In this document: positions 12,001 through 63,980 of the stretch, piece by piece
How positions within the stretch are numbered: position 1 is the stretch's first letter
Layout: the number at the start of each line of letters is the position of its first letter
Notes under the pieces: generated by a model
What the model saw: the letters and a program-made list of their open reading frames with translations, nothing else
Told to the model about the DNA's origin: nothing
Databases searched by the model: none
Origin: Tubiluchus corallicola
Lineage: Eukaryota; Priapulida; Priapulimorpha; Priapulimorphida; Tubiluchidae
Length of the DNA stretch: 64,000 bases
Assembly: GCA_030141605.1 (NCBI GenBank)
Contig: JAQGDQ010000007.1
Span: 607,173 to 671,172, forward strand
Reading direction: 5' to 3'
Position numbers and translations under genes: made by a program

Positions 12001-15000
12001 TTTCTGCTATTTCTTGCATTGTCTTCTCATTTGTTGATCCTTTTATTGTTACTTTATAAACTTCTGCTTTTGCTATTTGAGGAGTAGGTAGCAATGGTTC
12101 TCTGGGTTTCGCAGGAACAAAAGTCCGTACCTGCCAGTTACGTTTAGCAAACTTATATGGCCGCTGTCTACTATCCTCAGCTGTTTTTGACTCGTCTAGG
12201 TGTTTCCTTTTTTCAAAAGACCCGTCTTTGTCCATCACAGCTGCAATGCTCGGATCCTGTAGTTCATTTTTCCTGTACATTGGGAAGGTTTTTGGCTTCT
12301 CTATGGGAGTTGGTAGCAAGGCTCTTTTGGGAGATGTTTCCTGATTTGCATAACTGGCATCCTTATCAGCAATATGATGCTGAGAAAAACTGTCTGGTGC
12401 AGGCTCTCTTGGTACTTCTCGGTTAGGCTTACGCTCATAAGAAAAACGTCTACCATTAGCACGATGCACAGCTAAACTGCCATCTTTGTTTTCAATGGCT
12501 TGCTGTGACAAGCGTCTGTCTCTGCTATAATCGTTCAGAGCACCAGGAAATTGTGATTTATGGTCGCTATGGCTAAAAGACTGTAGAGAATGTTTATCCC
12601 TTTCATTCTGGTGTGACTCCTGTCTTGTATCGCCCGCATTCCAGTGCACATCTGGGCTGCGTTGATCCCCAATTCTCAATTTGTCTCCACGAGGAATGGC
12701 CTCTCTTCTTGCAAGTCGGGGATCACGAGAGCTTTTTTGGTCAAAGGAATCTGGCCTACTATAACTTTTGTTTAATGGCCTTGGGTCAGAAGAGTCACGG
12801 TGAGAATCCTTGGCATATAATCTTGAATCAGCAGCTTCATGAGGATAATCCTTGTTAGATAATCTTGGATCAGAATGTTCACGAGGCTGGTCTTTGGTCA
12901 GTAATCTTGAATCTGCAGATTCATGCAAGTTATCTTTGCCAGATAACCTTGAATAATCACGAGAATAATCCTTAACAGGTAACTTTGAATTAGAAGATTC
13001 GCGAGAACGTGTTTTGCTAGATGACCTCAAGTCAGAAGAATCGCGGGAGTAGTCTCTGCCAGAAAACCTTGAGCCAGCAGAATCACGAGAGTAATCTTTG
13101 CTGGATGATCCTGAATCTGCACATTTATGAAGGTAATCTTTATTAGACAACTTCGAATCAAGCGATTCTTTTGAAAGACTGCGTCTAACAGATCTCGGAT
13201 CGGAGGAACGACGATGATGCCGTTTATCCAATGATCTGTGATCTGATTGAGGATCTCTGCTTGACGATCTGGAATAGGATGATTCTCGAGGATAATGATC
13301 CCTGTCAGATAATTTACTGGATGATCTCGCAGATGGGGAGCTTCGAGATTTATTCGAATAGCTTCTTTCCCGATTTGAAGACTTATTTCCTTCAGGTAGC
13401 CTAGAATGTAAATCTGAAGTATTTCCTATTACAACTTTGCCATCTTTGTTACCTTGTTCTTCACCTGTTTCACGTTTTGGGCTTTGGGAAGAATCAAATG
13501 AACTTGTGATGCTCTTCGGTTCGGGTGAAGATGGCTCTGGAACTCTGGGTTTACTTGCCGGTTTCACTTTTGCCCAGGCAGGGAGTTGTCGCCCTGTGGA
13601 TTTTGAAGTTGGCTTTTGTTCCGGGGTGGGAGAATGGATGGTTTCGCTTGATGTGTTTGGCAAGGCTGGTTTCAAAGGTGTGACCTTTGAAAGCTTTTGT
13701 CTGGGGTCAACAGGGTGCACCACTGTTGTCTGTTTCACAGCATCACTGGGGAGCTGCTGCTTAGTAGCCTGATCCTTCCTACGGTCTGGAAGACTATGAA
13801 GATGGGTTTTATCTTTTTCCAGAATTTGTAATTTATCTTTCTCTGTAGAGATTTTTCCTTTCTCAGAAATCAATTTTAGCTCTTTTTCATTAGCTGTTTC
13901 AGCAGTTGATTTGTGCTCCTTTTTTTCTTGTTTCTGTTCTGTGTGAGTTACAGAATCACCTTTGTGTGATGCGCTCCTTTCAGGGGTACCCTTAGGCATG
14001 GCATCGTGTTTAGACTCAAGCTGTTTTGGTTCAGATACAGGCTTAATTTTATCACTAGTTTTTGCAACAACACTTTCATTTTTGAACAAAGACACACTAT
14101 CAAACAGAGACTTTCTGTCGTGTTTTGAGTGATGATGTGCTTTCAGTGCATGCTTGTCTGTTTCCCGGGACAATGTTCGTTCTTTCACCAAAACAGGAGG
14201 AGAGGAGCTTCGCCCTTCCTCTATGTCAAGATTGTGAACATCGTGAGTTATAGGGGAGAGTTGAGGAGCAGGACTATCATTAGCATCACGACTCACAAGT
14301 CCAGTAGACGGCGTGGTTACTGGAGAAGTTGGTGCCATAGTAGTTAACCTTTTCTGCCCCTGGCTAAGCATTTTCTGAAAAAACAATAACATAAAACATG
14401 CAATTAAATGATACCATTATACATACTGCTATAAGTACAACAGGTGCCGCTTAATAGATTCACTTTGGGACGAAAGTGTTTTTACTCAATTAGCCGAATG
14501 AATCATTTAGTCGACGAATGTACTATCACTACTATAGAAGTATGAGTCAGCACTCATAAGCTTAGTATGCAGAGCAAAAGCTTTAAATAAAAACAAATTA
14601 GTGTCAAAAATCCTACGTGCACTTAGTTAGGAATATGGGTACATATTTATATAGGTGAGTAAATACGAAACTGAAAAAAATTGTGTAAATCTTTTTATTT
14701 ACTAAAAATAATAAAAATCCGTGAAAGGTCGGTTGCTTCTAGAGATGACACCCTGCCACGAACCGAGGTCAGGAGCCAAGAACTAGTTAGGGGGTCTATA
14801 AACTCTCCCAATGGGGCCTGAGACCTTATTCTGCATTTTAGATATTTTATGAGGTCTTTTTCAAAAGCTAAAACCAAGAAATTCAAACTACAAAGTAGTA
14901 CAAATTCTTGATTTTAGACTCCAAAAAGCCCTAAAAATCTGAAGTTTACAAAAGTGCAAGCAGTTCCTTCTCAGTCACGTTTCTTACACTTTATGAGGTT

Positions 15001-17630
15001 TCTGGGATTGATTTAGCAATCAAATTATTAATCACTTTATGTTGTATGAATAAAACTAAAGCAGAAGAATACTTGCTTTGCAGCATTTGCCGCTGCAACA
15101 AAAATTAGCAAAAAATGCAGAAGGGGTAAAATGATGAAGCCGTGCAACTAATTAAAATAAATTAATAACTTTACTAATTTAATAATAACAGAGACTCAGC
15201 TATTGTTTGGCTTGATCTTTTGTAAAGTTTCAATAGAACATGCAAGTTGTATTTCCGCTTTTTTTCTACTTAAATTTAAATGTGATGTTTGAAATCAGAA
15301 GATTTCACAATTTTTCAAAAATCTGATCGAACTCGAATCTATGGCTGATTTTCAGGATACTCGGGGCCAAATCAGGAGTGGTGACAACCTTAGCTGCTTC
15401 TTCACAAAGAAGTTATTTTATAAAGTTCTCACACTGACAAAAACAATGAAAACCTCTTGTTGCATACTGCAGATATTCACGCAAAAAGCCTAATGCCTGA
15501 TGTACTTAAGCTGTAGTTGGTGATGCCCGTGTTTTCCCTGCGAAAAGATTTAAGTTTGGCTTCCAGAAACAATGAGGTTAAATGCAGCTAACGAGTGGGT
15601 GACAGATTCAAAGCAAAACAGCTATACTAGCATTTTAGCACGTGATAAACGTATCTGCTTACAAACAAAACAGTACTTAATATGATTGTTTATGGTGTAC
15701 ATTATGGTATACAAAAGTGAAAAACGTATTATGACATAAACATGGTAACTGTTCCTTGGTCACAGACATAATATAATTTTGTCTAGCTTTAAGATCATAA
15801 AGCAAAAATATTGAAACAATTATGTAGAATTATTTGAGTCAATAGTCAACTTTTTCACACACACTTGAATAGGAATGGCCTGTACCACGTGTTTTTTACT
15901 CAATTATTTGACTGATTCTATTAAAAGTGAGTCCAATAAACTACGTCTACCGTATTATGTACTGCAGTCGTCAAGCATGATGCGATTTCGCACCAAATCT
16001 GAATAATACAAGATCTAATGTTGAATTAGCTAAGTGTAAACCTCGAAGATACCAACTAGCACAACATACCTTTTAACCAACTCTGCACATCAACATGTGA
16101 TGAATTAACAGCTGCAAGCAATAATAATACATAAGTGATAAGAAGTAAATACCTACTTTGTTAACCAAGTTTGTACATAAATATTAATTGCTATAATATT
16201 GAGTGCGACTACCTGCAAGGCTGATAATGGATCAGCCGCAATAGCAGCAATGTCAATCGCGGCAGACGTTGATTCGCTAGTCTCTGCACCTGTGAAGTTT
16301 TGAATGGTTGGTGCTTTCTGTGCTAATGGTGTTTGTTGAGAAACATGTGATGCCAAACTGCCACTTCCAGAAGTTACTGGCGGACCTACAAAGATAAGGA
16401 TTATAATACAATAACATAAACGTGGATTAAATAAGGTGCGCACAAACTCTTAATACACAATTCAAGTAGTGCGAACAAACTCTTAATACACAATTCAAGT
16501 AGTGCGAACAAACTCTTAATACACAATTCAAGTAGTGCGAACAAACTCTTAATACACAATTCAAGTAGTGCGAACAAACTCTTAATACACAATTCAAGTA
16601 GTGCGAACAAACTCTTAATACACAATTCAAGTAGTGCGAACAAACTCTTAATACACAATTCAAGTAGTGCGAACAAACTCTTAATACACAATTCAAGTAG
16701 TGCGAACAAACTCTTAATACACAATTCAAGTAGTGCGAACAAACTCTTAATACACAATTCAATTCACTACATAGTAGTTACCTTTGTGTTCTTCAGCATG
16801 CTGTATAGCATCTAATGACTGTGGCAACACCTTGTTGCTTGGCAATGTTCGTAAATCTACATCTCCATGAGGATTGCACACCAATGAATCTTGCTGCTGC
16901 TGTTGCGTTACGGCAGACGGAAACCCACCTGCTGCTGCCATCTGGTATTGAGATTGGGTACCGCCCTCGTTTAGTGACGGATAGTAATAAGTATCACCTG
17001 TGAGCAAGTGCTGCTGTGTTCCATGCTTCGGAAGAAGCTGTTGTTGCGTGGCTTGTTGCTGCTGCTGATAATACTGATACTGAAGCTAAAAAAATCAATA
17101 AGTCATGAAACAAAGTTGAAAACATTAACTTAAACGGATGTCTAAAAATCTGAATTTTCCAAAATCCAAGCACATGATTTTCTGTTAAAACTATGGCTAC
17201 AAGACAAATAAGACAAGCAAATAAGTTGACTTCAGCAAATAAACAACAAGAACGAAAAGAACAAACAACAAAGAAAGACATTTACAATGTAACTACTATA
17301 GTAGATTTCATTCACTTGTTTGGTGAGGGTTTCTAAAACTTATTCTATAACAGGTTTATCATTTATTAATTCAGCTAACTGAAACAGAAACATTTTAGCC
17401 CAATAGTTCCAAAGATAAAACTGCAGTTCAAAATAAAAATTTGAGAAAGTTTTTTTTGCAAAAGTAAGTGCTTAGAGAAGCTTGCAAAATACAAACGAGT
17501 ATATGAACATTTTTGTATTAAAAATACTACATTTAGACTATGTTACATTTACATTATAAGTGACTCTTACCGAAGTGGCCTTATTTGCTACACTGTACAA
17601 TTGCTGTGCTTGAGCTCTATCACCTGACAT
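9044..17630 (-). CDS. TCF20-like: TCF20/RAI1-family ePHD chromatin protein, 7 coding exons, 1417 aa
   Basis: Coding exons, in transcription order: 17630-17571, 17085-16782, 16385-16213, 14374-10841, 10260-10167, 9651-9602, 9082-9044 (TGA). Splice phases agree throughout and the total is 4254 nt. Residues about 20-75 are Gln-rich. A long Ser/Lys/Asp-rich disordered stretch follows, with nine 14-residue repeats (about 592-715), a 25-residue duplication (about 1037-1087) and an AT-hook-like GRGRP near 1116. From about 1274 to 1405 comes an extended PHD finger: FCALCG, VWIHQSCAVW, GIYLVGNRVHGLREAV, ACSVCKQTGATIGC, TYHYDCA, CRKHR. This order and the C-terminal position match TCF20 and RAI1, nuclear proteins whose ePHD binds nucleosomes; nuclear chromatin function is inferred from that family. 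The exon 4 to 5 intron uses a GC donor. The ATG lies only 8 nt after a 3' splice site, so upstream coding exons cannot be excluded. JADE- or PHF-type ePHD proteins are alternatives, but GLREAV after GIYLVGN favours TCF20/RAI1. Confidence 0.85.
11655..11800 (-). repeat. 75-bp tandem duplication inside exon 4 of the TCF20-like gene
   Basis: Two nearly identical 75-nt copies in frame encode a duplicated acidic segment (VNIDETINSVAA then VDDEK, 25 residues per copy). The few differences are mostly conservative (for example Val to Ile). The spacing from TTGATTGTTT at 11691 to the same string at 11766 gives the period. A recent in-frame duplication in a disordered region. Confidence 0.85.
12767..13138 (-). 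repeat. Nine coding 14-residue (42-bp) repeats in the TCF20-like gene
   Basis: Translation shows consecutive 14-residue units on the pattern D-Y-x-R-(E/D)-S-(A/S)-D-(S/P)-R-(L/S)-x-x-K, for example DNLHESADSRLLTK, DQPREHSDPRLSNK, DYPHEAADSRLYAK and DSHRDSSDPRPLNK. Eight units of 14 plus one of 12 residues fill exactly 124 codons. More degenerate Ser/Arg-rich sequence lies on the N-terminal side. The units are polar and probably disordered. Confidence 0.85.
14375..16212 (-). other. Intron 3 of the TCF20-like gene
   Basis: Bounded by CAG|gtagtc at 16213/16212 and a polypyrimidine-CAG acceptor ending at 14375, phase 0 on both sides. No further exon or clear mobile element recognised inside. Short frames here (for example 14695-14886 on the minus strand) have no family resemblance. 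Confidence 0.7.
16437..16766. repeat. 33-bp minisatellite, ten nearly identical copies, in intron 2 of the TCF20-like gene
   Basis: Ten head-to-tail copies of a 33-bp unit containing GTGCGAACAAACTCTTAATA, with essentially no divergence between copies except at the two ends. The array starts about 16 bp inside the intron from the exon 2 donor (16781) and ends about 50 bp from the acceptor of exon 3. Because 33 is a multiple of three, long repetitive open frames run through it; these are not genes. There are no spacers, so it is not a CRISPR array. Confidence 0.95.
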
Positions 17631-17638
17631 TACGACAA

Positions 17639-18469
17639 CTGAAAATAACCATAGTTACGATTGTAGTTTATTGAGATAACTATTTAAAGACATTTTATTT
17701 ATTAATTATCACCCCATAATAACTGCTTGTATCTGTATCACACCAAAAATTTAATTTACCACAAGATTTTTTTTTAAAATACGTTAGTAATAGTTAGTTT
17801 CAAGTCTTTGCTCACCAATCAACAAAATAAAGCAGACAAAAAAGCGCTGGTACTATTTTTCTGCAAAAATTCACTGATAAGTGTTGATTTTGTCCAATGG
17901 GAACTGCAAGTGATGATTATGCATTCATACAAACAATACTGATGGTGTATTATAAATTAATCATGTTCAATTTGTAAGTTATAATAATTCATTAATATTA
18001 CGTATACGTTCAGGTATCATTTGCAAAAATTGGAATAATCCCCAAAATATTCTAATAACATGACATGACATTTCAGAACAACTCACAACAACAATCATCT
18101 ACGATAAGACTAAATTTTATTTAAAACCCTTATTTTACCATTTAGGATTCGCTTAAACAAATTTCGTACATTGCCTCCTTAATCAAACATTTAAGAAGGC
18201 ATGTTACTAAAAATTCAACATGTGACCTTTAAACAGTAAAAGTGAGAGCTTTAAATGTTTAGTCTGATGATGGATGGCTGGGATCATGGGAAATGCTTGT
18301 TTGTTCTGGGCTGTCACGTAATATTAATATAATTTTATGCACATTTTGGAATGGTTCTGATTTGAAAACCGTATGCGAACATAATTAAACGTTAGTTTTT
18401 GAACCATGCACACTGCTATGTATCAGCTTCGGGAGTGCACTGAATCACAGACAGATGGACTTGTTTGCC
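17639..18469. other. Upstream flank or 5' UTR intron of the TCF20-like gene
   Basis: Begins at the 3' splice site (TTTTCAG at about 17645-17639) that precedes the start codon, so the promoter and any non-coding first exon must lie further upstream. No core promoter element or coding exon could be fixed. Confidence 0.4.
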
Positions 18470-20280
18470 ACCAATAATTATTTTCTCATTGGTTTCTCAA
18501 TTTCTCGCAAGTCAGGCAAGCCCTCGTATGTCGAGCCTAGTGCATACAGACCCATTTGTATTTCCAGTCATATTGGCAAACTGATAGAAAGAATACACGA
18601 ATGCCGTCTAAGAGAATTTTTCGAATCACAGCATTTATTAGATAGTGCCCAAGAAGGATTTAGAAAGAATAAAAGTGCTAGCAGATATTTATATAGACAT
18701 CGGTTAGAAGCTAAGCGTGTTATTATTGTAAATTGGTAAATGGTCTTCTTCTATCCGTGGATTTAGAGAAAACTTTTGGTTAGATTGCTAAAAATGTGAA
18801 GCACAGGTGTATGTGATAAACTGTTTATATTATGGCCGACTGTAACTAGTATCTTCATGTACAACAGTGAAATGTGGGGTTTAACTGCAATGTAGGAAGC
18901 AGAAATAAATGTATTTCACATAGGCCTACTCAAAATATCTTAAAACTAAAATGACCATATATCAATTTAAACGAGCCAAAGAAAACTGGAGCTTAAGAAA
19001 ACTAAAATCAGAATCAGAAGACTAAGACGAGTAGGGCATTGAATGAGATTGCCAGAAGCAACACCAGTAAGATTAGCATTGAACAAGGCACTGAAACGTA
19101 CCAAACAACCTCCAAGCAAACCAAAAACAACATGGATATCAAAAATTAATAATGATTTACAACAGCTGGAAACAAAACCTAACAATAGCATCAAAGGAAT
19201 TGAAAACTTTAGCTGCAGACAGGAAACAGCAGAGTGCTCTAATAAAGGATAGAGACTCAATGTCTACAATAGATGTTTAGAGCAACAGAAGAAGAAGAAC
19301 AAAAAATTGCAATTTGATTGTAACAAGATAACTAAATGGTGCAGAAAGTGGCATTTAGTAATTAATACAACTAAGACAGAAGTTGTGCCTCTAAATATTG
19401 AGGCTGGCACATTTCAAGCTATTTGGATTTGAGGTAAACAGTTCAAAGAGTCACGTTTGATTCTAAGCTAAGCTTTAAACATCATCGCAACACCATACAT
19501 GGTCGATGCTTAAACACCAGGATGCGAATAAAAAAACTATGTTCCAACAAATGGGGTTTAAATATGAAGTCTTGTATGAATCTAGTCAATTCATTAATAT
19601 TTCCAATACACGCCTATGGAGTATCAGCGTGGGAAAATACTGAATCTGTACATAGAGACTTAACTTGCATTACGATATGTTAGTGTCAGCCTCCGGCAGA
19701 TACTATCATCCTGGTATGAATGTTTCGGAAATTATATACAACTCGGCACCAATGGATATACAATGTAAATTTTGCAATCCATGATGAAGTTGCTACGTTG
19801 TGATGATAATGATCAATTAAAAGTCAGTGATCATCAATGACATTTCTTCATACACGACAGTTCATTGCCTTCAGAAATAATTCTCGTGATCACTTGATAG
19901 ACATCTCGGTTTTGAACCAACAGGGCTTTGTTAATGCTAAAGTGGAAAACGTTTATTATGCACTTATGGCAAAGGATAAGGTCATGGTAAAAGAATAATT
20001 GTCTGAAATACGCTCTCCCTGTTTATCATGCAAAATTGTGAAAGACAACCAGAAGCCTTAATAATAATAGATGGTATTCCAGCTGAAAGAATAAATTTGA
20101 CCTTGGATTTAGACGAAATTTATAAAGTTAGCTATTTGCAACTGCTCTGAAAGTGAAGAGGATATGGAACAAGTTGTATTTGTTTACAGATTGCATGATC
20201 ATTTGTTTCCAAATTTGTTTACTGTATGCTGCAATAAGGCGGAAAGCGAAATAGTTACCCGTATGAGTAGAATTTTTAAA
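18470..20280 (+). mobile_element. Decayed non-LTR retrotransposon (LINE) reverse-transcriptase fragments
   Basis: Conceptual translation shows scattered RT-like blocks with frameshifts and stops between them. At about 18500-18715 are SAYRPICISSHIGKLIERI and LLDSAQEGFRK, the fingers/palm start of non-LTR RTs. Near 18750 is VDLEKTFG (an eroded DLEKAFD). A tail-like RRVGHWMRLPEATP block lies at about 19010-19250 and a KWCRKWHLVINTTKTE thumb block at about 19310-19400. Near 19450-19700 is a HHRNTIHGRCLNTRMRIKK to IFPIHAYGVSAW segment. The order suggests at least two fragments, one inserted into or joined with the other. Non-functional. CR1/Jockey-like is a guess. Confidence 0.7.
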
Positions 20281-28290: not shown

Positions 28291-41208
<12,918 letters not shown>

Positions 41209-43316: not shown

Positions 43317-46300
43317 TCATACTATACAGTTTTCACAAATTGGATTATCGTCGATGATTCGTTCAAAACTGAAGCATTCTAAGTCGATTGTTTTATATTG
43401 ACCGTCCAAGAAGCGTTCCATGACCGCCCGACCGATCGCAGGCGCCTGCTGAATCCCGTGTCCACTGAAACCATTTGCAAAAAAGAAATTTTCATGAATC
43501 GGATGTGGGCCAATGATGGCATTCTGATCAAATGTATTGTAATCGTAATAACCAGCCCAAGCCGCTTTTACCTGCAAACAAAATCAAATATCACAATTAG
43601 CAGCCTTAGTCACTAATTTGTAGATTTGCCATCACTTTTCACTACTAGTGCCTACTACACAGACAATAGCATATGCAGCTTATACACTACAAATAATTTT
43701 GATGTTGTGACTAGAATTATTAAATTTGCACCTCGGGGAAACGCTGACTGTAAGGTGACAGCTAACAAACACATTCACTGGAGCTCTCTTTTCGGTTTAG
43801 GTCTCTTGTTAAAAATAGACCTATATGTGGACCTTTACTAAACTTGGAAAGCGTACTCAATAAACACAGGCGAAGCCTACCAAATCAATATAGTAACTGC
43901 AGTATTATTCTGCACCTAAAGTTATGAAGAGTCGAAAAACAATGAAATTTAGGCCACATCAGGGCTGAACTGGACATAGAATAAAATGACTTCTTCCTAT
44001 TCCAGTATATTCATGTACGTGCACCAAAACTTGGTTTTAAACTAGCAAGTTACAGTAATTTAATTATGGCACCACAATTTTAGCTGCACAAAATAATATG
44101 GTTACAGATGGACATATGATTCCAGCATAAACAGTTTCTATACTCTACTTAAAAACTAGTTATCAAATGTTATAGTAAGCCCTTTCTTCTAACAACTGTT
44201 CACTACGACACAGCCGTTCACAAAGTTCCAGATTTTGAATATGGCCGGGAAAAGGGTACCATTGATGGCAGAGAATGACCATATTAGTACATGTTTGTTT
44301 AATCATGAGCTACAGCGAAGCAGCCAATATCAGCTGTACAAGAGTTCCCCAGTGACATAGCCACGGAAAAAGGTACCAGTGATAAAAGAGAATAAATCCT
44401 CTAGTATATTTAATTGTGTGAGTTTCTCTGTGGCCGTCAACATAACTGAGGATGCTCCCAGTGAACGGAAGAAGCTGAAAATTGAAAATTCCCTTGGAAA
44501 AAGAGGGTTCTAATTAGCATGAGCTCAAAAAGCCCCTGTATTGCAGTCAATCTTATTGTGAATGTTGACCAGTACATAGTAGAGAAGTATACTATCTACC
44601 AAGGATGATCCTCTAAGATGAAACACTGAAACAGCACAAAAGCTTTGCTTCATGTTTTGACACACGCATACGTGGTACCTCAATGAGAGAAATAATAGAG
44701 TAGCAAATGAGCAGTTTTCTCAGTCGCTTATGGCTATCTATCACATGCTAACTAAGTCATAGTTGCTTATACTTGTAGTTAAGTACACACCATGACCTCT
44801 CACCTGTTCTCTTTGACACTGCTGTCAGTCTGTGTAATAAACAATCATCTGGACAATCCTATGGGTAATTTTATACTAACAGCAAAATGAAGGCAAAGTA
44901 TAACTACGTAAAGTCAGTTAATGTATTTAGAGAGTTAAGCATCATCAAATCTGGTTAGTAACTGGAAGGCATGCAACTATGCGTCTGGGAGCAAGCTCTT
45001 AAACCCACGCGACAGCCTGCATGTTAACATATAGTATCACGGTTACTTGGGAACTGAGGCCTGAGAGAATTTCATGATGTTCTACAAAAATTATAGGGCG
45101 ACTGTTCAGTTTGTTTTAAATAAACCCAGCCCATTTTCCTTTGATAAAGTTTCTTTATTTAATTAGTTAAATGCAAATTAGTTAGCCTACACAACTGTAA
45201 ACGCCTTAATCAGTTAATGTTAATCTATGGCTTCTATTAACTGGAACTTCCTGCAACGTACCACTAGACTACAACACCATAAATAATGCGCAGACATTCA
45301 TTCAGTTACTGCAAGGTGTTTTTCAGAACGACCAATAGAGTTATTTTAAAAAGCACGTGATACCAGAGCTATAATAATCTACCAATTAAATACACACACG
45401 CGCTCTATTTGTCCCGCCCCTAGTCCTGCATAGACAAATGACTCCCATTGTTTCCCGAAGCCTTGGTTGGCTCAGCTTTCGGAGTCGATAAGGAGTTACG
45501 ACATTGACGTTGCTTTCAAAAGACAAATCGAAAGGTCAAAGAAGAGAAGATGATTTATAAATTTTTATTATTGGTAATGTTGATAACGGTAGTATGGGGT
45601 CAAAAAGACAACCAGCGAGGAGGTTCTAGTATGAACCGCGTGGTTTTGACGATACTTCACACAAACGATTTGGATTCACGAATTGAGCAAACTGACGAAA
45701 ATAAATCTATTTGTGATGGTGATGACTTATGCTGGGGTGGATATGCACGACTAATAACCGAGGTATCTAACAATAATAATAATATACGTACATTGTCATG
45801 CAATCATTTCCCTTCCTCTTCTCTCTCTCTCGCTCTTTCTGTCTCCCTAGATCTAGCCTGTACGTATTTAGAGCTGTATCAAGCATCAATATGTTTTTGA
45901 AGTCTATGCTCGGAAAAGTTTGTTCTTTATATTACATGTATTATCGTTAGTGAAATTTTATGATTTTTACGCACTTATTTTTTTGCAATCGCTGTGTGTA
46001 TTTAATGTTTAATGCTTTTTCTTTATTTGATATGAACGTACGTTGGAAACAAAAATTCATGTTAACTGAATTACCATAACTGCCTACCTAAGTGCATTGC
46101 CTGCCTGCTTGCCAGTTGCCACTTACTTGCCTTTGCCTATCTATCTACCTACATAATTTCTTACCTATTCACTTGCCTTACTACATACCAATTTATCTGC
46201 CTAGGACCAAATTCCCTAAACAATCTAGTTACTTGGACATAACGACGTTTGAACACACTGTTCTGTTCCACTTCATTGGACTCTGCTATATTATGTTTCA

Positions 46301-49300
46301 TGTCATATTGTTTCATTCTTTGCTGATCTGTGCTGTACTGTTCAGTCTGTTGCGATCTGATTTGTTCCATTCCGTTTATTTTACTCTATTTTCCTCAATT
46401 CTTTTGCAAGTTGATTCTTTCCATATTAGTTATACAATTATTACTTTTTACAGTTACACAGAAACTATCATATTAATTATATTATTAGCCTATTATTATA
46501 TTAATAATAATATTAATGAATTACTTGCAAGTAATGAGTTAATGAGTTAGGTAGATACATTGATAGGCAGGCAGTTAAGCAGGCAGGTAGGCAGGTAAGT
46601 AAGTAAATATGCAGATAGGTAAGTAGGTTTGTTGATAAGTACCTAGGTGGTCTGGCCTGTTTGCAACTAGTGAGGTAGGTAGATGGACAGGTAATTAGGT
46701 AGGCAGATGGTTAAGACTTGACAGTGTTCCTTGCAAAAATGTTTTGACACATGAGCAGTATGAATTTATTTTCAGCAATATAAATTTGTATAGTATGGTC
46801 CATGACCATGTTTGTCATGTGAATATGCCTGGTCCAGTGCAGTTTGATCATGCATGACTGGTCAGAGTGCAGAGTGCTCGAGACTATAACTTCTATTTAG
46901 AGTACACAGTAAATTGACTATACTTGTAGTCAGTGCAGTTATTCTAGTGTGACTGAGCAGTCTGAGGAGTTTCACATTTTGCTTCTTATCTTGAGCAATA
47001 ATTTAAATATTCCCAACCTTTTAATCATACCACTGTCTCTACCTCGTGTGTCTGTACTGCCTAGTTTTGCAACTCTATGTATTAGTTTTCTAGTTAGTCA
47101 ATGTTATGACTCGATCTGACCGATGTCCTGAGTCCTTGACCCTTCGACAATGTCACCATTCACCACATCACTGTCAAGGCCATTAGCCAAACATTGCAAG
47201 TTTCATGATGCATACTCATTTGCATTTTTAATAAGGATTTTTGATGGTGTTAACAATGAGAAAGACGACAATGCAAGGACTGGCTACTTGGACCCCTTCT
47301 TTGAATGGGCCAAATTAAGTGACAAGTAAGTTCACAGGTTCACAGTAATCGATGCATAGAGAAAGAAAATGCACACCAAAAATTTTGACTTGGTAAAAAT
47401 ATCTGAGGAAGAAGTGTTCAAATAAAAATGTGACATATGTACATTGAAATATATCGACTATATATCAAGACTCAGAGCCTGATCTTGTTTCATTACAGGT
47501 CAATAGTTATTACATCAACCTGAATAAATCAACCTCAGCTAACATTACCTTACATCAACCTCAGCTAAGCTTATTTTGTTGAATAATTGATGACCTCAGA
47601 ATGAAAGCACATGCAAAACACTGCAATATGTCATTACTTTCCCACCATTGTCAAATTGCTCAAAAATGTAATATCTTTTGTCCTGTGCAATACATCATTG
47701 TGTACAGCAAATATATACATGAACATATGTCATCAGGCTACAAAAGATGCCAGATAATAACTGACTTTAAAAGTGACCTGGAGATCATCATATAATTGTC
47801 TAGTTACATCACAAAGAAAATTGCTAAAACATATTATAAATGATCAAACTGCAAATTGCAAATGGCCTCAGGGCTTTCCTATTTTAATTATAAAGGCATT
47901 CTGTCTGCTCACTAGTGGTTAAGTACATATATGTCTAGATAGTGTGTAGTCACACTTATCTAGTGCTTAAATATTGTGATTATTTTAGGTTAAGAAAGCT
48001 AGAGCCACAGAAGAGAACGTTTTACTGATGGACGCTGGAGAACAACAGGTCGGAACCTTGATGTACAATATCCATAAGTACCGCGTGATATCTTACTTCA
48101 TGAATCTCGCCGGGTATGATGTGGCTGTAAGTGTTAATATTTATCTACATTGGTTGAGTAATTCCATAGTTATTAGATATGTTGTACACAAGCAAAGCGG
48201 CCTTAAACAACAGAGGATTCTGTGACGTTATGTTGAGTAGCTGTTGTGTTATGTTGCCTTTCGGATCTTTTTTACACAAGCAGTTTAGTGTTTGCTGATT
48301 GAGTGATTTTTGTTCCTTCTGACTAGCTAATTCACACATCTCAAGCCACCCAGTCAAGATTAGCAAATACTCCAACAAAACTTTTTGCCAATCTGGATTA
48401 TCTGGTAGGCCTACTGCTTATTACCAAACAGTCATTCAACTCTTTTCAGTTTTTGAAATGTAAAAACTATTTGACCATGAATTTCTTACTCGACATCATC
48501 AGCCCGATTACTAAGAATTGTCTCTCTTCTAGCACTAATACTTGTAAGTTAACAAATGCTTACCCAAATCTGCGTAGTTTTCTAGTCCTTTGAACCACTC
48601 CTATATAAGGTGTCAGACTGTCAGCTATACTATTCGTATCTTTTGCTATTTGGGAAGTTATACCTGGGAAGTTTGGGCCTAACTTTTCAAAAGTTTTGAG
48701 CAGTAGCTGAACCACCAACTCAAGGTCACCACCTAACTGAGCTAACTCTCATGAGGTTTTCCAACTCCTTACAGTTCATGAGTTGCAATTCTCTAGCAAT
48801 TTTTTGGTTGCTCACAGCCATACTTGCTGTTATCGTACTAAAGCCTAGAAATCTAAATCCCCCACATATAGTCATTAGTCAAAGGCTGGTGTCCTTAGAG
48901 ATTTAATTAGGATGATACAATTTAGGGGCTTGATATCAAATCAGGTGTGGGAGCTGTAAGGAATAGAAGCAGTTTGACTTATGGCACATGAGCAAGTTTG
49001 AGGACAGGGTGAGACGAAGCTTGGGTTGTCATTGGTTTTCTGAACTTAGACACTTTTTCAACGGAATTAAAATGCATGAAGAACGTGACTCAGGAAATGT
49101 GGGATTCACATGGAAATTAGATCAGGTTTGCAAATCAGCTTTAGGTGTGTTGCTCTGGATGGTGGCATTTTCTAGAGATATCGCAGCTATTTCCAGTTGA
49201 ATATTAAGATATTGGCAATGTGAAGTTCGGCTTTTGGCAGCATTAGTCTTTAGGAATGGAGATGAGATGAAAGAATAGGTAATTTCAACTCCACTCGGCT

Positions 49301-51610
49301 GTAAAATTGCCTCACTGCAACATTTGCCAAAATAGTAAATTATCTTCTCACAAGGCAATGCCTTAATATTCTTATGTAAGTTATTTAGATTACTAGTTTA
49401 ATATTCCTTACAATCCCGAGAATTTAATCCATTTGTTGTCATCACATTGATGACAATTTTTATCAAGATTACTTTACAAATTTCTCACCAATGAGCAGGT
49501 TATTCATAACATTGAAATTTTATTTATTACAGGCACTTGGAAACCATGATTTTGATTATGGCATGTACAATATAGCTTCCTTCCTGCGCAACCTGAGTTT
49601 TCCTGTCATCAGCAGCAATATCGACTCTACTAGAGAACCTCTAATGAGAGATATGTAGGTACAACATTCCGAACTTAAAAGTTGCTAAACTTTACAAACA
49701 CTCAATAAGTACAAAGTTCCTTTTTACAATTGTCGAAATATGCTGTGTTCTCAAAAGCAATACTATGTCTGCAAGGCATTATTTTTCAGATTACAAATTA
49801 ACAGCTTCATATTGTTTTTTTTTACATATTAATCTTTTATAGATTACAAAAGTCAATTATCATGACACTCAGTGATGGAACGAAAGTCGGTGTTATTGGT
49901 TATATAAATACAGAATTCCCTACAATAGGTAAGTTTGGATAAAGACTAAGTGGCAAAGGCATTGATGTAATTTTCTTACACATTTGTTGTTTCTAGAAGA
50001 GGAGTTAGTTTAGGAGACAAATGTATCGTCAAATGATTTTATGTATATGATAGCATCTTTTCCACTGATGCAAATGGGAAGTTTTGGCAGTTTTACAAAA
50101 CATAAAGTTATTTATATTAGTTTTAATGGAAATCTTGATGCACGCGCCGTTGAGTAGACTCACGGTTAATAGAATCAGTCGCTTAATTGACTCAAAAACA
50201 CCTGAAACGACAGCTCCTATTCAAATGTACACAAAACTCTTGGTCCTTCACCTACTTAAAATACAATACTTGTATGTGCGCAAAGAGCTTTTCCTACTTT
50301 TACGTCATCTTTACTTCCATTTTGTGCACTATGTATACAGAAACAATCATGTTAAGTACCGTTTTGTTTGTAAGCAGGTACGGTTTTTCCTTCACGTATT
50401 TAAAATAAGACAACTTGTGTGTTCCCAAAGAGTTCAGACTGCTTTTATGTTATCTTTACATCAATTTTGTGTACTATAATATATGTACGTAGAAACAGTA
50501 ATGTTGAGTACAGTTTTTGTTTGTAAGCAGGTACAGTATATTCATCATATGTTGTCTTGCGGTTTTGCTGTCTGTCACCTGCAATCAACCTCGTTTTCTA
50601 TTTGTCTCTAATGTAATAAATATGGTCATTCAAACAATCTTGTTTTACCCACAGCGATTTCATAGGACTTTATTAATACCAGTTAAGCAAGTTGCATAAT
50701 GCTCTTAACAAACAGTCGCTTTTCTTGATTTTAGGTCAACTAAGAATTGCAGAAATAGAACAAAGCTTACGAAGTGAAGTAGAAAAACTACAGAACACTG
50801 GTGTGAACATTATTATAGCTTTGGGTGATGCTAACTTAAATGTGGACCAGCAAATTGCAAGAAATGTTGCTGGGATTGATATCATTGTCGGCGGAGAGTC
50901 CAGAACACTTCTGTGGCCAGAAAACGGTAAGGTAAAGTTCTTTATATATGAGCTACATTTAATAATATGATTAAAAGATTGTTTTAATCATAAAAATCAT
51001 ACTCAAGAAATTTGTGATAAATAAAATATGATTGGCTGACAATAAAATGTAACTGAAATAGAGTTTCAAATCATAACTGACCTGAAAATGAAACTGATTG
51101 TAATGTATTACACTAATATGTGACTATATAAAAACTATTTCAGACGTTTTAAAGTCGCAGCCTGTGACTTTTAAACCAATTCTTGGAAATAATCTGATGA
51201 ATCCTTTTTACACAAAAATATATGTAAATATCTGCAAACCTTCATTTAAATAATCTAAATTATTTTCAGTTGAGCCACCATCAACTGAAGTACCACAAGC
51301 ACCTTACCCCTTATATGTGACAAATGAGAAAACTAGACAGGAGGTACCTATAGTTAGTTGTTTTTCTGGAGGCAAATATCTTGGGAAGATCAAACTCACA
51401 TTCGACAAAGATGGCGGATATTTAGTAGGAGCTGAGGGGCGCCCAATACCGTTAGACAAAACAGTTCCACAAGGTACATATGTATTATGTTTGTTTTAAA
51501 TCAAATTAAGTAGTAAGTATTTCTTGCTGTTAAGTGATGGATATCAGTTTGCAAAGTGCTAAATTGTACACAAAATACTACTACTGCTGCTGCTGCTGCT
51601 GCTACTACTG

Positions 51611-51666
<56 letters not shown>

Positions 51667-54600
51667 ACTTACTACTACTACTACTACTAATAATAATAAT
51701 AATAAATTAGTAAACAACAAAAAAGACTCACTGTGGATATAGCCTTAGAAAGCATTGAGTAAAAGTCGAATGCAAAAGGTTAATTCCTGAAAACAGGATT
51801 ATAAAAAAAAATTATTACAGTAATTTAAGTAACAGTAACAATTTAAGTCACGGTAATGATTAGCAAAACTTTTCTGTAAAGCACTATTAAAATTTGATTG
51901 TGAAATATAGATGCAAAACACTGTTTGTTAAACTTAACCATGAGGTTCTGTTTCTGAATTAATGCTGCATGACACTAAGAGTTAACTCTAGTAAGCACTT
52001 TCTCATAACTGATGCAAGTCAACTTATTTTGACGTACTGGAATTTAATTTTTCATATCCGATCACAAATGAAATTTAACAAAAACTACCTGACAAAATTA
52101 ACTTTTGATCTTTGTCTTTTATCAAGCAGCACTAAAATTTGTTCCGTTCTTGTTTTTACCTCAAAGGTTCTGATAATGAATGACGAATGACTCTGCTTAC
52201 TGATATTTAACTACTATTCTCTGACAACCAATGAAATTTTATTCAGACTTTTTAAATTCCATTACTTGAAATGCATTTGCCAGACACTGACCATCAGTGA
52301 AATTTAATTGACCTGCGAGTCTCACTTATATGTTTACACAGCCCAGACTGACATAACATGAAAGTTTGTGGACTGCATGTTTTTTACTTTTAGATGCAAA
52401 AAACAACAATGATAATTACTACAATTGCATTTTTGTGACATTTTAGATATGAATGTAGTGGAATTAATTAAGCCATGGATAATCAGCACAAATTCAACTG
52501 CAGTAATTGGAAGGACAGCTGTGGATTTGGAGGGTGGAAGACTTCCTTGCAGAGTTAGGGTAAGCTATGGAAGGTTGCATCCAAATTCTGCTTCATTACA
52601 TTGTAATGATATCGATTTTATGCAAAGGAAGCAGCATCGAATGAAATTGAAATTGTTGGCACACAAGACAATTCATCCTAAGCCTACTATGCTGTAAAAT
52701 ATTCGCAGAACCTTCTTTTACTGCTTTCAGTGAATTTCACATATAGGAATCAAGAGCCAGACTAAATTTTCAAACCTTGTGTAGAGTCTGTCCCTATTAG
52801 GGATTGGACTAGCCATTGATCTGAGTGTTTTGTTTTCAGCAACAATTAGTATCTTATAATTTACAAAAAGATATTTGATTTAGCAGCTCTGAATTTACTA
52901 CAAACTCATAAATTAAACATACTTTACCAGTGATTGCTGATTCATAGATAGCTCAAATTTAAATGAATTTCTAAAAAATGCACCTGATATCCAAAATAAT
53001 TTGATAAGAGCTGCTTATATGCAACAATACATTACAAAAACAAATTCATGACGTAAAATCCGGGGAATTTTCATTTAATCGTTTTTTAAGTTGGTTTGGC
53101 CTAGAAGTAGAATGAATGGCTAGGCTTCCCTTGACCTGGTTCCCTTATGAGGGTTGCAGATGATTTTTACAGACTTAGCTGATACGATAGTTAAGCACAA
53201 GTGAGCTTGTTTGTAAACAAATGGGCACCACTGGTAGAAGATTCTCATTAAAGGAAGATATGCACATTTTCGATTGTGGCTAAAATACATTTTGCCCGTT
53301 CAGAGTATTATCCTTGCTTTGTTGATAAGTTACTGGACTGTGGTCCCACCACACCTATTTAAAACAAATAGCAGGCTTGACTGTTGAGCACAGGATTCTG
53401 GTTTGCCATGTTTGCTTTTCTATAAAAACAAGTGCTGGTTTAGTAACTGCCATTTTGCTTTCTAATCATTATTACATTAATTGCATACTTTGCAAAATCA
53501 CCAAAGATTGTCGATAAATTGTATTAACAAGATTTTACTGTAAGTGATTATAGTTTATACTATATTGCAGGAATGTAGCCTGGGCAATCTAGTCACAGAT
53601 GCTCTAATACAGGAAAATCTTTACTCTAAAGATGGTTCTGAATGGGCACAGGAAACTATAGCTATATTCAATGGTGGTGCAATAAGAGCCCCAATTAGTA
53701 AAGATGACTATGATGGTAAGAAATAAAAAAGATATTACAATACTATGTATGAATTTGAAGGGGAGAATGGGGTCACAATTAGTTCAAAAATAGTCCGCCC
53801 GAGAACCAAGAGCAGTGAATGTGCAAAGTTAATGTTGGTTTTCTCTAAATGTTTTTAAGATAAAGTTAGGTCCACTTTTTGACTTATTTGTCGCCTACTA
53901 ACAATGAAACTTTTTAAAGTCATAATAGGATACACTTGAAGAAAACTTGAAGAAATGGAATGCCAAAAAACTTTAAGGAAATGTACTGATTACCATTTTT
54001 ACCTTGTGTAACTTATTCAAGTCATTGGAACTAACCACAAATAATGACTTGAGTAGTAACTGGACTCAAGTCAATTTTGTGGTGCAATGGTAGAATAGAA
54101 AACCCTGCTTCTAAATTCTAATATATAAACAATGACAACTAGTACTAAAATAAGATTCAAATATCTTATAAGGTGATTGTGTAAATATGTGTCTAGGCAT
54201 CTAATCACTTTGTACTTGGATACTTAATTATGCTTGTCAAGGTGTTCATTTTATGTCGAATTAAATTATGTAGCTTTGCACGAAATTAAACAAAAACACG
54301 CTTACGATAACAATAAGACTCTTTTCGATGACTTCCGTGTAGAAGACGCTCCCGGGAAACAGTTAAACAATGAATAGGCCCTGCTACACCACCAATATAT
54401 CGGTAAATGAGAAATTGCAAATTGATACACTGACAAACTTATAACCATTGTAGTAGGTGTAGTGACTGCTGGGCACTTACTGAGGATGCATCCATATGGA
54501 AACATGATTGATAAGATTAAAGTGAGAGGAAACGTTATAATGGCTGCAATGGAGCACTCGGTACGTGGTTACCATGTGGACTACCCAATGGGAAATTTTT

Positions 54601-57600
54601 TGCAAGTTTCAGGTAAAAAACAACTACTGTTTCACTTTCTGTTTATCTGTCAGTTAATCTTTCTGGGCCTCTTGTTCATTAATCTTCATTGTTTTTGCTT
54701 TCTCACATACTGTATGCGCAGCATCTTAATATTCTTATTCTCAATCTTTAAAATTAGGGCAAATAAAACAAGTAAAACAAATACAACATGGGAAACAATG
54801 GGATGCTAATACCGTCACATTTTAAAATGTATATTTCCTTGAGCACAGACATTTTCACAATCTTTAAATTTTTGACTTCTAATATTACAGAATACCAGTA
54901 ATTTAATAATTAAAAATCTTAAAAATGCAACATTCGTGTTTCAAACTTCGAGAATATCAAAATCCTGCATAACAAAAGTCAGAGCTTATGTGCCGTATAG
55001 AATTGAGAAGTATGGTTGGCAGAAACAGAAACGAACACGTTCTGGTGTGTATGTATCATCCAACATGCCAATTGCAACATGAAACTTATGTGAGAAATTG
55101 ACAAGGATTTTGTTTTACAAGTGGAAGAAACTGAGAACGCATAATCCAAGCCACATAAGTTGTCGTTCTCATCAAGTTTCTGCATGCACAATTGACCAAG
55201 TCTCTAGTGCAACTGTACTTTTGGTTACAAATTAGGAACAAAAGTGAAAGTGGGGCAGTTTTGAAGAGCACAGTCTGTATCATGCTTTTATTTTATTTTC
55301 ATTGACTTAAACACTTTCTTGCACTAGTTCGTGCAGTCCACAAAACAGTACTTGTTTGTTGTTGTTGTTGTCAGTGTTTAATATTTATTTTTACTTTTAC
55401 TACTAGTCTACTAATTTCTTTAATTGAACCACTTATGTAACTAACTTAAGTGTGTTTTCAAAAATAAATGATGTTAATAATTTAAGAAAAAAATGTTGCC
55501 TATTAATTTTACAGTTTGTCATTTTTTAATATTTTCCTAATCAGAAGCCCATAATGATGCCACATTTTGCTTTTTTTGCATTAAACTACATTATCTTTAT
55601 CTTTATGAATTTTATAAATTTTACAGTATTTTTAAAACTACATTATTTTTAGTTTTGTATTAGCTTGTCTACTGCAGGTTCATACGTGAGCACAGTTACT
55701 TATAGTCTTGAGATCTGTTACTTTAAATTTCCCTTTTTTACTTGATTTTGTTTCTAGGAATGAGAGTCAAGTTTGACATGGAGAAACTTGAAGGATCTCG
55801 TGTCGTGGAGATACAAGTGAGGTGCACCAAGTGCCGCATACCTGTTTACGAACCTCTGAACCTGAACAAGGAATACTGGATAATTACAAGTAGATATTTG
55901 GCTTCAGGAGGAGATGGTTATACAATGCTGAGAGATAATCAGTTAGCCAAGTTCGCTACAGGTATGACAAAAAATGATTTAGTACATTCATTAGTTGTCT
56001 TACCTGTGTGTCTGTTTAGTAGTTGGGAAAGAATGGCAATTGTGCCCGTTTGCATGTTTTGAATTGAGCAAGATATGCATGGGTAATGGAAATATCTAGA
56101 CACTTTGTTACTTTATCTAACATGCAGAATGAGATGGGGTGGGAAACAATTTTCGGCAGAACTATTATTAATGTATATATGTGCTAGGATAATTGTACAT
56201 TACTGTTACAGGTAATCGACTGCTTGTAAATGTGGCAGACTACATTAAACGAATGTCGCCTGTTATTCAAGGATTAGAAGGCAGAATAGTGTTCAGTGAT
56301 CGTACTGTCGTAACGTACAATTTCCGCGCCACACCTAGTTTTCGGTGTGTGGTATCTCCAGTTGATCCAGCAGCTCCCGTGCAACCCCAACCAGGTACAT
56401 CTCAGAAACAAGTCTCTGAATATGCGAAAAGACTCAGACCAAAACAAGTATATATGAAACCAAAGTTGGTTCCTCAAAGACCTCAAGTAGACCCGCAACC
56501 AGATCCATTTCCACAAAAAGTTTCACATTTTCCACTAATTCCTAACAGAGAGGATCCAACTCCGCAAAAAGTTCCATGGTATCCACTGAGACCTCAAGTA
56601 GACCCGCAACCAGATCCATTTCCACAAAAAGTTTCACCTTTTCCACTAATTCCTAACAGAAAGGATCCATCTTGGCAGGAGCTTGAGAGAAACAACCGTC
56701 GCCCGCAACCAGATCCATTTCCACAAAAAGTTTCACCTTTTCCACTAATTCCTAACAGAAAGGATCCATCTTGGCAGGAGCTTGAGAGAAACAACCGTCG
56801 CCCGCAACCAGATCCATTTCCACAAAAAGTTTCACCTTTTCCACTAATTCCTAACAGAGAGGATCCATCTTGGCAGGAGCTTGAGAGAAACAACCGTCGC
56901 CCGCAACCAGATCCATTTCCACAAAAAGTTTCACCTTTTCCACTAATTCCTAACAGAAAGGATCCATCTTGGCAGGAGCTTGAGAGAAACAACCGTCGCC
57001 CGCAACCAGATCCATTTTCACAAAAAGTTTCACCTTTTCCACTAATTCCTAACAGAGAGGATCCATCTCGGCAGAAGCTTGAAAGAAAAGACCGTGGCAG
57101 ATGGATTGAGAAAGTTCGAGAACGCTTTCTAGGTCGCCAAGGACGAAACAAACACCCCAGACGCAACAGGCCCGACAAACGTGGCGATTATTAGTTACTA
57201 TTTAATTAGTAGCTGCATTGCAAATTGTGAACAAAAACAATTATTGTATTATCATGGAAGTTTTGTATTATTATTTGCAATTTAATTTCTCAATTAGTTA
57301 TGCTTAATTATTCAATTAATGAACAGTGTGAATTGAACTATTTTGTTAATTGTAGTAATGATTAGAACCTGAATTTAATTACTACCATATTATCCTTAGG
57401 TTCTACAATGTTCTAAAACCACATGTTCTACAATTAGTAAAAAATTATTGTTGAAATTGTGTATCACTATGTAATGCAGAGCATACAGATTAACTCCATC
57501 AAGGTTTGGCAATGTTTTTTGACTGTTTTTCAATATACTGTAAAACTAACAAACATCACTAAACAGCAGCCTGTTTCAAATGAGTTTATTTTGGTATTTG

Positions 57601-62517: not shown

Positions 62518-63980
62518 CAGTCTAGCCTCGTTATTTCACCCCTCGTTATGCCGCCAAACTCGTCTCTCGCCATAGAAAGTACCAGGACAGATTTCCTGCT
62601 TTGATGTTTACCTCTTTAAGTCGCCACCCTCGCTTCTCGCCCTCGCCACGTCATGCTAGGATGAGTGCTTATGTAAACTATATTCGTTATGCCGCCAAAC
62701 AGACAAACTCAGAGGTGAATCGATCAATACATATACCGCGTGTCGATCAATATAACCGCGGTATGTAGACAATGCTGCTGTACTCGATAGACAGACATAA
62801 TTAATCTAGTGTGTGTCTCACCAGGATTAGATTAGGAGTGCTGTGGTCGGTTAATGCGCAGAGAAACTAAAGTGCCAAAGCTGCGTTTTGGATGAATTTT
62901 TGAAGTCCCTCAACCGCAGAATGGCGAGTGAAAACCACCATATTTTGATGCTAATGGACAATGCACCCAGTCACATCATCCCTGAGAACTTAACTCATAT
63001 CCGCAGTGAGTTCTTGCCGCCTACCACTGCCAGCCACCTGCAGCCGATGGCCGCCGGTATCATCAGTGCATTTAAGTCCCACTACCGTCGCTATCTGGTT
63101 CGCATCTATGTGGATGCAATCGACGCAGAATGTACACCAAAGGTTGAGATCGGTGACACAATCCGCTGGACAAAGCTGAGCTGGGACGAAGTGACGGAGA
63201 GCTGTATCAAGAACTGCTGGTGCCAAACAGGTATACTACCAATAGAAGCAGCAGCCGCGGACGCTGACACTCAGTCGACAGCTGAAGCCCACCGTGAATT
63301 TCGCAACCTATTTGAGTCGCTGGGTATGCCGGCTATGCTGCTGATGACACCGGCCGAGTACTTAATCACCTGTCCACCTCCGAGATGATGACTGACACAG
63401 AGATAGTTCAGCTTGTGAGTGAAGGGCAGGCCGCGCGCAGCAGCGATGAAGATGACACGGGCAGTTGCCATGAAGATGATGGCGCATCTCATGTATCGAA
63501 TGACCAGGCAGCAGCAGCTGTCGACACACTGATGCGATACTTTGAACAGTCTGACAGAGTCACAAGCGAACGATATTCAAGGATTGTGTTTGATTAGACG
63601 TCGTGTTGACTGCTTCCGTGTATCATCAATGAAACAGTCGTCTCTTCTGAATTATTTCAGTCATCAGTAACTCACTTGTGAACATTTCTAAATCTTTTGC
63701 TAAGTTTATTGCATTTAAGTGTATACTCGAAAAAGGTTTTTTAAATAAAAAAGTAACATTCTAAGATTATTTTTATGACATTTTTTCATTTCTGATTTAA
63801 TGTTGATTGGTATCATAATGCGAAATATATTTTATATGTACATACAGGAACACTATGTTAATCAACTATTATGTATATACATATAGACTAACTTCGTTAT
63901 ATTCCCGTTATCTCGCCATACTCGCCTCTCGCCAAAAATTTGCCCTAGACGGACAGTGGCGAGATAACGAGGCTAGACTG
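62518..63980 (+). mobile_element. Internally deleted pogo/Tigger-like element, 1463 bp, TA target duplication
   Basis: Inverted ends CAGTCTAGCCTCGTTAT (62518-) and ATAACGAGGCTAGACTG (-63980) match over about 24 bp with two mismatches and are flanked by TA on both sides. The ends resemble Tigger termini, and CGTTATGCCGCCAAAC-type subterminal repeats lie inside. It carries only the C-terminal part of a DDE transposase; the N-terminal DNA-binding half and the first catalytic Asp are missing. It sits at the window edge in a FOXRED1 5' intron or flank. Confidence 0.9.
62888..63597 (+). pseudogene. Truncated, frameshifted Tigger/pogo transposase remnant
   Basis: Frame 62888-63388 reads ILMLMDNAPSH (second catalytic Asp, residue 24 of this frame), FLPPTTASHLQPM, GIISAFKSHYRRYLVR and WTKLSWDEVTESCIKNCW, the standard pogo/Tigger DDE order. 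The third catalytic residue, expected 31 positions after the second (30 between), is Ala in QPMAAG where active relatives have QPMDQG. After a single-base frame shift near 63365 the C-terminal part continues in 63385-63597 (TDTEIVQLV, then an acidic tail). The helix-turn-helix domain is absent. Not functional. Confidence 0.88.

Follow-up and report, generated by a model that had tools for sequence, protein, structure and literature searches.

A four-gene clade of CD73 homologues with altered metal ligands in the genome of the priapulid Tubiluchus corallicola

The window, the 64,000-nucleotide stretch of the Tubiluchus corallicola genome analysed here (contig C1831, 607173-671172; the whole 343.5 Mb assembly of 2344 contigs was searched), carries on its plus strand, at 45550-57194, a homologue of the ecto-5'-nucleotidase CD73 (NT5E), referred to below as the window gene. 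It comprises 11 exons that encode 851 residues in an open frame, and all ten introns are of the GT-AG type. The gene model was first built by hand, and a spliced aligner reproduced its exon boundaries as far as residue 570. The initial annotation had let the gene end at 55961 and so lacked exon 11, in which the catalytic domain is completed and followed by a long tail. Alignment of the protein with human CD73 (415.7 bits, 3.3e-123, 40.5% identity over 511 aligned columns) extends over residues 32-553 with both domains aligned, while Pfam reports 5_nucleotid_C at 2.3e-36 and Metallophos at 2.6e-4 (21.9 bits, just above the cut-off of 21.5). By this full-length homology over both domains the window gene belongs to the CD73/NT5E family by descent. 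A tblastn search of the window with the window protein returned the gene's own exons and two chance-level matches (E 3.8 and 7.1). Intron 6 holds a CTG trinucleotide array of 27.7 units (51584-51666).

Residue numbers are those of human CD73, taken from the alignment and verified. The metal ligands of CD73 are D36, H38, D85, N117, H220 and H243, and the ligands assigned to tsetse 5'Nuc from its homology with the E. coli enzyme agree with them (PMC2843633). Four of the six zinc ligands are replaced in the window protein. Exon 1 (45550-45762) encodes a hydrophobic N-terminus of the signal-peptide type and the motif HTNDLDSR, in which the D36 equivalent is kept (codon 45667-45669) and H38 has become Asp (45673-45675). 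In exon 2 (47989-48126) the motif DAGEQ carries D85E (48040-48042), which taken alone is a conservative change, and exon 3 (49533-49654) encodes GNHDFD with the equivalents of N117 (codon 49542-49544), H118 and D121, leaving the catalytic dyad H118-D121 intact. Exon 4 (49843-49928) precedes exon 5 (50735-50926), where LGDANL contains H220D (50827-50829) and GGESR contains both H243E (50896-50898) and a fifth change, N245R (50902-50904). After exon 6 (51270-51473), the nucleoside pocket is spread over four exons: R354 lies within CRVR in exon 7 (52447-52559), N390 and R395 within NGGAIR in exon 8 (53571-53715), position 417 is Tyr in exon 9 (54457-54612), and exon 10 (55758-55961) supplies Tyr at 500 and the conserved D506.

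The four ligand changes, the retention of D36, N117, H118 and D121, the kept pocket and the spacing between 220 and 243 had all been described in the initial annotation and hold up in the alignment to human CD73, with the motifs in frame and the spacing exactly 23 codons. N245R, visible in the GGESR motif, was absent from its discussion; N245, R354 and R395 are described as contacts to the alpha-phosphonate of a CD73 inhibitor (PMC7508162). At positions 36/38/85/117/118/121/220/243/245 the window protein reads D D E N H D D E R. We reject the idea that wrongly assigned exons conceal the histidines, as homology runs on both sides of each changed residue within the exons.

A six-frame search of the genome with the window protein gave 55 matches, and the gene models built from these comprise three further genes with an altered site, here called RET, TanA and TanB, and two genes with canonical ligands, INT1 and INT2. 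RET lies on contig C1302 (L031, 50500-59500, minus strand) and is almost intronless, with 704 codons from stop to stop and 671 from the first likely Met; it is probably a retrogene and includes 52 additional codons, which the spliced aligner took for an intron. TanA and TanB form a tandem pair on contig C1831 (257000-285900; L032-L034), about 370 kb from the window gene, and exon 2 of TanA starts irregularly. INT1 on C2207 and INT2 on C977 keep all six canonical ligands, each with 11 exons in the aligner models and with introns matching those of the window gene; position 417 of INT1 is His. C186 carries exons 1 to 5 of INT2 in a nearly identical copy, probably a haplotig. Identity to the window gene amounts to 54.7% for RET, 56.9% for TanB and 47.1% for TanA, with 40.7% for INT1 and 43.2% for INT2.

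At the nine positions listed above RET reads D D E N H D D D R, TanA D S E N H D D D R and TanB D D E N N D D D G. Common to all four altered genes are thus E85, D220 and an acidic residue (D or E) at 243, along with the retained D36, N117 and D121, while Arg at 245 is found in three of the four (window gene, RET and TanA) and Gly in TanB. The catalytic H118 is Asn in TanB. The earlier statement that every lost His had turned into a carboxylate is correct for the window gene and fails for the group as a whole, as TanA has Ser at 38. With the same kind of change present in three paralogues, allele-specific decay is rejected.

How selective these changes are can be read from a comparison with bacterial relatives, 83 in number and drawn from 84 loci, one of which had no open reading frame (ORF) of more than 400 residues bearing a family motif. 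Eighty of these loci came from one scan with patterns over residues 33-38 or 113-119, in which they ranked highest among 589 relatives; by title they are mostly Alphaproteobacteria, and ORFs were retained if they held GNH, DAGD or GGH. The set was therefore ascertained on canonical motifs and is not random, the counts at 85, 220 and 243 being the least biased. Within it D36, D85, N117, H220 and H243 are kept in 83 of 83 relatives and H38 in 82 of 83. We defined as superconserved the 69 columns that do not differ between CD73, INT1 and INT2 and whose identity across the 83 bacterial sequences is 95% or more. Of these, 58 are unchanged in the window gene, 56 in RET, 57 in TanA (whose changed column 72 is a gap at a bypassed junction) and 55 in TanB. 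Eight columns are altered in all four genes (38, 85, 88, 113, 119, 220, 222 and 243), which corresponds to four of the six ligand columns compared with four of the 63 others (Fisher p 0.001); the corresponding counts in the window gene by itself are four of six and seven of 63 (Fisher p 0.005). Columns 38, 113 and 119 fall inside the search patterns that found 80 of the bacterial loci. The four shared changes outside the ligands (88, 113, 119 and 222) each lie within four residues of a ligand. As the altered columns are concentrated at the ligands and their neighbours, the protein is conserved elsewhere and altered at its metal site.

Single changes at these positions occur in other relatives. 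Thirty-five loci in viral contigs, of which 34 had an ORF, yielded 19 distinct relatives, among them one with D at 243 and one with Q at 245. A Tistrella plasmid copy has D38 together with E245, and three distant ORFs of the same genome show Y38 (C679), Y38 with D220 and R245 (C1761) and N121 (C1105). The four changes together were found in none of these viral-contig relatives, nor in the Tistrella copy or the three distant ORFs, and a search of viral contigs with the window protein alone gave no close relatives. The ORF on C1761 (L041, 213000-219000) is intronless, distant and UshA-like with 315 residues, an altered metal site in a different subfamily. Among the titles and abstract beginnings of open-access literature we recognised no CD73 relative with these changes, which is not proof that none is in print.

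The relationship of these genes was examined in a tree of 18 rows, made up of the six genes of this genome, CD73 and 11 sequences from the bacterial set of 83, from which ten altered columns were removed. Even so, the window gene, RET, TanA and TanB form one clade (support 99/99), whose sister is the pair of INT1 and INT2 (96/92), and all six genes stand apart from human CD73 (100/99). Inside the altered clade the window gene is paired with TanB at 85/86 only. The simplest history suggested by this tree would be a single origin of the ligand changes followed by duplication. The metal-site observation is confirmed, and its extension to a whole clade of four genes makes it stronger than first described.

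Selection was assessed by pairwise counts after Nei and Gojobori (NG86) and by a codon model. For all 15 pairs of the six genes the synonymous distance (dS) is at least 1.5; the nonsynonymous distance (dN) is 0.28-0.41 inside the altered clade, and INT1 and INT2 differ by a dN of 0.25 and a dS of 1.88. A codon model of the four altered genes returned a dN/dS of 0.14. When one end branch was freed, the estimates were 0.11 for RET, 0.14 for TanB and 0.07 for TanA, with likelihood ratios against 1 of 30.1, 32.6 and 86.9, respectively. The fit that included both canonical genes had an inner branch at its bound and was set aside, so that the canonical genes are covered by the NG86 distances only. 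D36, E85, N117 and D220 are identical in all four altered genes through synonymous codon differences. Purifying selection argues that the altered clade is in use, the proof for the window copy being weaker.

The paralogues also differ at their ends. A hydrophobic C-terminus of the type that signals a glycosylphosphatidylinositol (GPI) anchor is found in INT1, INT2, TanA and RET and not in the window gene or TanB, the best 12-residue hydropathy within the last 40 residues being -0.87 for the window protein, -0.33 for TanB and 2.13 to 3.03 for the other four, a comparison of hydropathy only. Exon 11 of the window gene (56212-57194) instead leads from the end of the catalytic domain into a basic, proline-rich tail of 297 residues (net charge +24, 62 prolines), which runs to the stop codon without a hydrophobic end. 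Five tandem units of 99 bp (33 codons) with 97% matches make up 56603-57095 on the plus strand, and an Arg-Gly-Asp (RGD) tripeptide at 57180-57188 on the same strand is followed by Tyr and the stop, giving the protein end KRGDY. As a motif of three residues the terminal RGD may be a chance occurrence. A 137-residue tail query matched only this gene in the whole genome. The absence of a GPI-type end together with a long basic repeat tail ending in RGDY suggests that the matrix or cell surface, and not a lipid anchor, holds the protein.

Loss of the GPI end has been described for tsetse 5'Nuc and chrysoptin, secreted salivary CD73 relatives of blood feeders, of which the tsetse protein also acts as fibrinogen-receptor antagonist and keeps its metal ligands (PMC2843633, PMC2853526). 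Both proteins are reported to be without RGD, whereas the window protein ends in RGDY and has lost ligands. Nothing shows that the present animal feeds on blood. The salivary apyrase of blood feeders is rejected as a simple parallel, the tsetse protein retaining its ligands.

With CD73 (PDB 6xuq and others) the window protein shares both domains, the hydrophobic N-terminus and the nucleoside pocket. It also has cysteines that match the CD73 pairs 51/57, 353/358 and 476/479. It differs from CD73 in four of six zinc ligands and N245, in the missing GPI-type end and in the long repeat tail, and from the canonical INT1 and INT2, which keep the six ligands as well as hydrophobic C-termini. Judged by sequence, the altered clade is best read as an old, constrained CD73 side branch without the two-zinc site of an AMP (adenosine monophosphate) phosphatase. 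It would have arisen by duplication from a canonical ecto-5'-nucleotidase and then given up this site. Because H38, D85, H220 and H243 are changed and Arg stands at 245, CD73-like two-zinc catalysis is unlikely in light of the known mechanism, and the window protein is expected neither to bind two zinc ions in the manner of CD73 nor to hydrolyse AMP at CD73-like rates. The charges of R245 and of the acidic cluster probably cancel out, or the site would hold one hard cation at most, and R245, R354 and R395 would take the phosphate of bound AMP, as dyad and pocket are still present. Since the two-domain fold and the nucleoside pocket remain, a secreted nucleotide binder is the most likely identity of the window protein, and we lean, with slightly more belief than doubt, towards a secreted pseudoenzyme whose kept pocket binds AMP, adenosine or another nucleotide. 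Alongside the canonical CD73 genes of this genome, such a protein could act as a sink, a sensor or a competitor, held at the matrix or cell surface by a tail that would take the place of the GPI end.

Three groups of results weigh against this reading, and each lends something to another explanation. The first is the pocket itself: in place of R354, RET has Phe and TanA has His, and TanA also has Lys in place of R395. As the pocket residues vary across the clade, nucleotide binding may not be the conserved function. The proposal of a nucleotide-binding pseudoenzyme, already made in the initial annotation, therefore stands for the window protein with its complete pocket and does not extend to the clade, in which R354, R395 or H118 are lost in single paralogues. 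These differences would suit a scaffold without nucleotide binding, the fold serving for protein-protein contact or as carrier of the tail with its RGD and repeats, and the acidic and Arg cluster being structural only. A tail that is long, basic and found only in the window gene fits such a role, and so does a precedent from scabies mites, whose inactive protease paralogues include some that inhibit complement (PMC4930577). The window gene nevertheless keeps R354, N390, R395, the aromatics at 417 and 500 and D506, and we regard a mere scaffold as unlikely, slightly more so than the rebuilt enzyme considered next.

Secondly, the acidic set is strictly conserved, which is also compatible with a working all-oxygen metal site, the other option raised in the initial annotation. 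D36, E85, N117, D220 and D or E at 243 provide oxygen ligands in all four genes, and E85, N117 and D220 were fixed through synonymous change at the clade dN/dS given above. In a rebuilt enzyme of this kind E85, N117, D220 and D/E243 would hold Ca, Mg or Mn at the second zinc position, and H118-D121 would hydrolyse a phosphate or pyrophosphate. TanB, however, has Asn for the catalytic H118 and TanA has Ser at 38, Arg 245 places a positive charge beside the site in three of the four genes, and R354 is lost in two; with R354, R395 or H118 missing from individual paralogues, a reaction common to the clade is less likely. The related fold of VPS29, with the altered ligand Asn39, offers a further caution, as one study describes weak metal binding and no detected phosphatase activity, whereas an earlier report had found weak activity (PMC3101248). 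VPS29 resembles the altered clade in having an altered metal ligand and a fold retained for another job, and differs in being an intracellular retromer part of another family with one ligand turned to Asn rather than a set turned to carboxylates. Judged from the residues, a rebuilt enzyme is a possibility to which we give limited credence. Rather doubtful, too, is the broader idea that the clade swapped the di-zinc site for an all-oxygen one, with Arg 245 replacing one metal in most members, and employs it with a hard cation, either to carry out a new nucleotide reaction outside the cell or to sense nucleotides under the control of the cation.

The third group concerns selection. By NG86 dS lies beyond correction in 10 of the 15 paralogue pairs. 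The window branch evolves faster, with a dN/dS of 0.30 versus 0.11 for the rest (likelihood ratio 9.7), fixing this branch at 1 is slightly likelier than the single-ratio model (-6126.3 vs -6127.9), and with INT2 as outgroup a dN/dS of 1 on it is not rejected at the 0.05 level (likelihood ratio 3.69). This faster branch, on which a ratio of 1 is not rejected in one of three trees, and the irregular exon 2 of TanA could be taken as signs of a decaying duplicate heading to a pseudogene. Such decay is highly improbable in view of a frame open across 11 exons with canonical splice sites, changes that predate four gene lineages, residues at 85 and 220 that were fixed alike and estimates below 1 on all four end branches. 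The other two trees place the window branch below 1 with likelihood ratios of 6.56 and 7.54. Purifying selection, on which the initial annotation had made its reading depend, is thus seen in the clade as a whole and, in two of three trees, on the window branch. Its view that the changes are not random decay is supported, because the three paralogues share the kind of change, the frame is open, the splice sites are canonical and dN/dS is below 1.

Elsewhere in the window, an open frame of 1218 residues rich in Ser, Arg and Lys lies on the minus strand at 10760-14416; its end, which by eye resembles an extended PHD finger, gave no Pfam match. The open frames at 34563-39311 (plus strand) contain a coiled stretch and a WD40 repeat (PF00400, 1.9e-5, slightly under the cut-off) and may resemble TRAF7. 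A DDE_1 transposase fragment (Pfam PF03184, 4.2e-21) is located at 62855-63388 and a weak reverse transcriptase fragment (PF00078, 8.7e-5, under the cut-off) at 18389-18739, both on the plus strand, and a 33-bp tandem repeat of 9.9 copies with 99% matches occupies 16436-16762.

From bacteria to human, the relatives covered by this analysis hardly vary in the metal ligands of CD73. A clade of four genes that altered most of these ligands in a like manner, lies beside canonical copies and keeps its fold under selection represents a natural experiment on the CD73 scaffold without its two zincs. If AMP or adenosine is bound, the window protein would act as an intrinsic control on purine signalling outside the cell and would offer a model of how CD73, a drug target, can be controlled by competition; if another metal is used, the clade would be an example of the re-metalling of a binuclear metalloenzyme in evolution.

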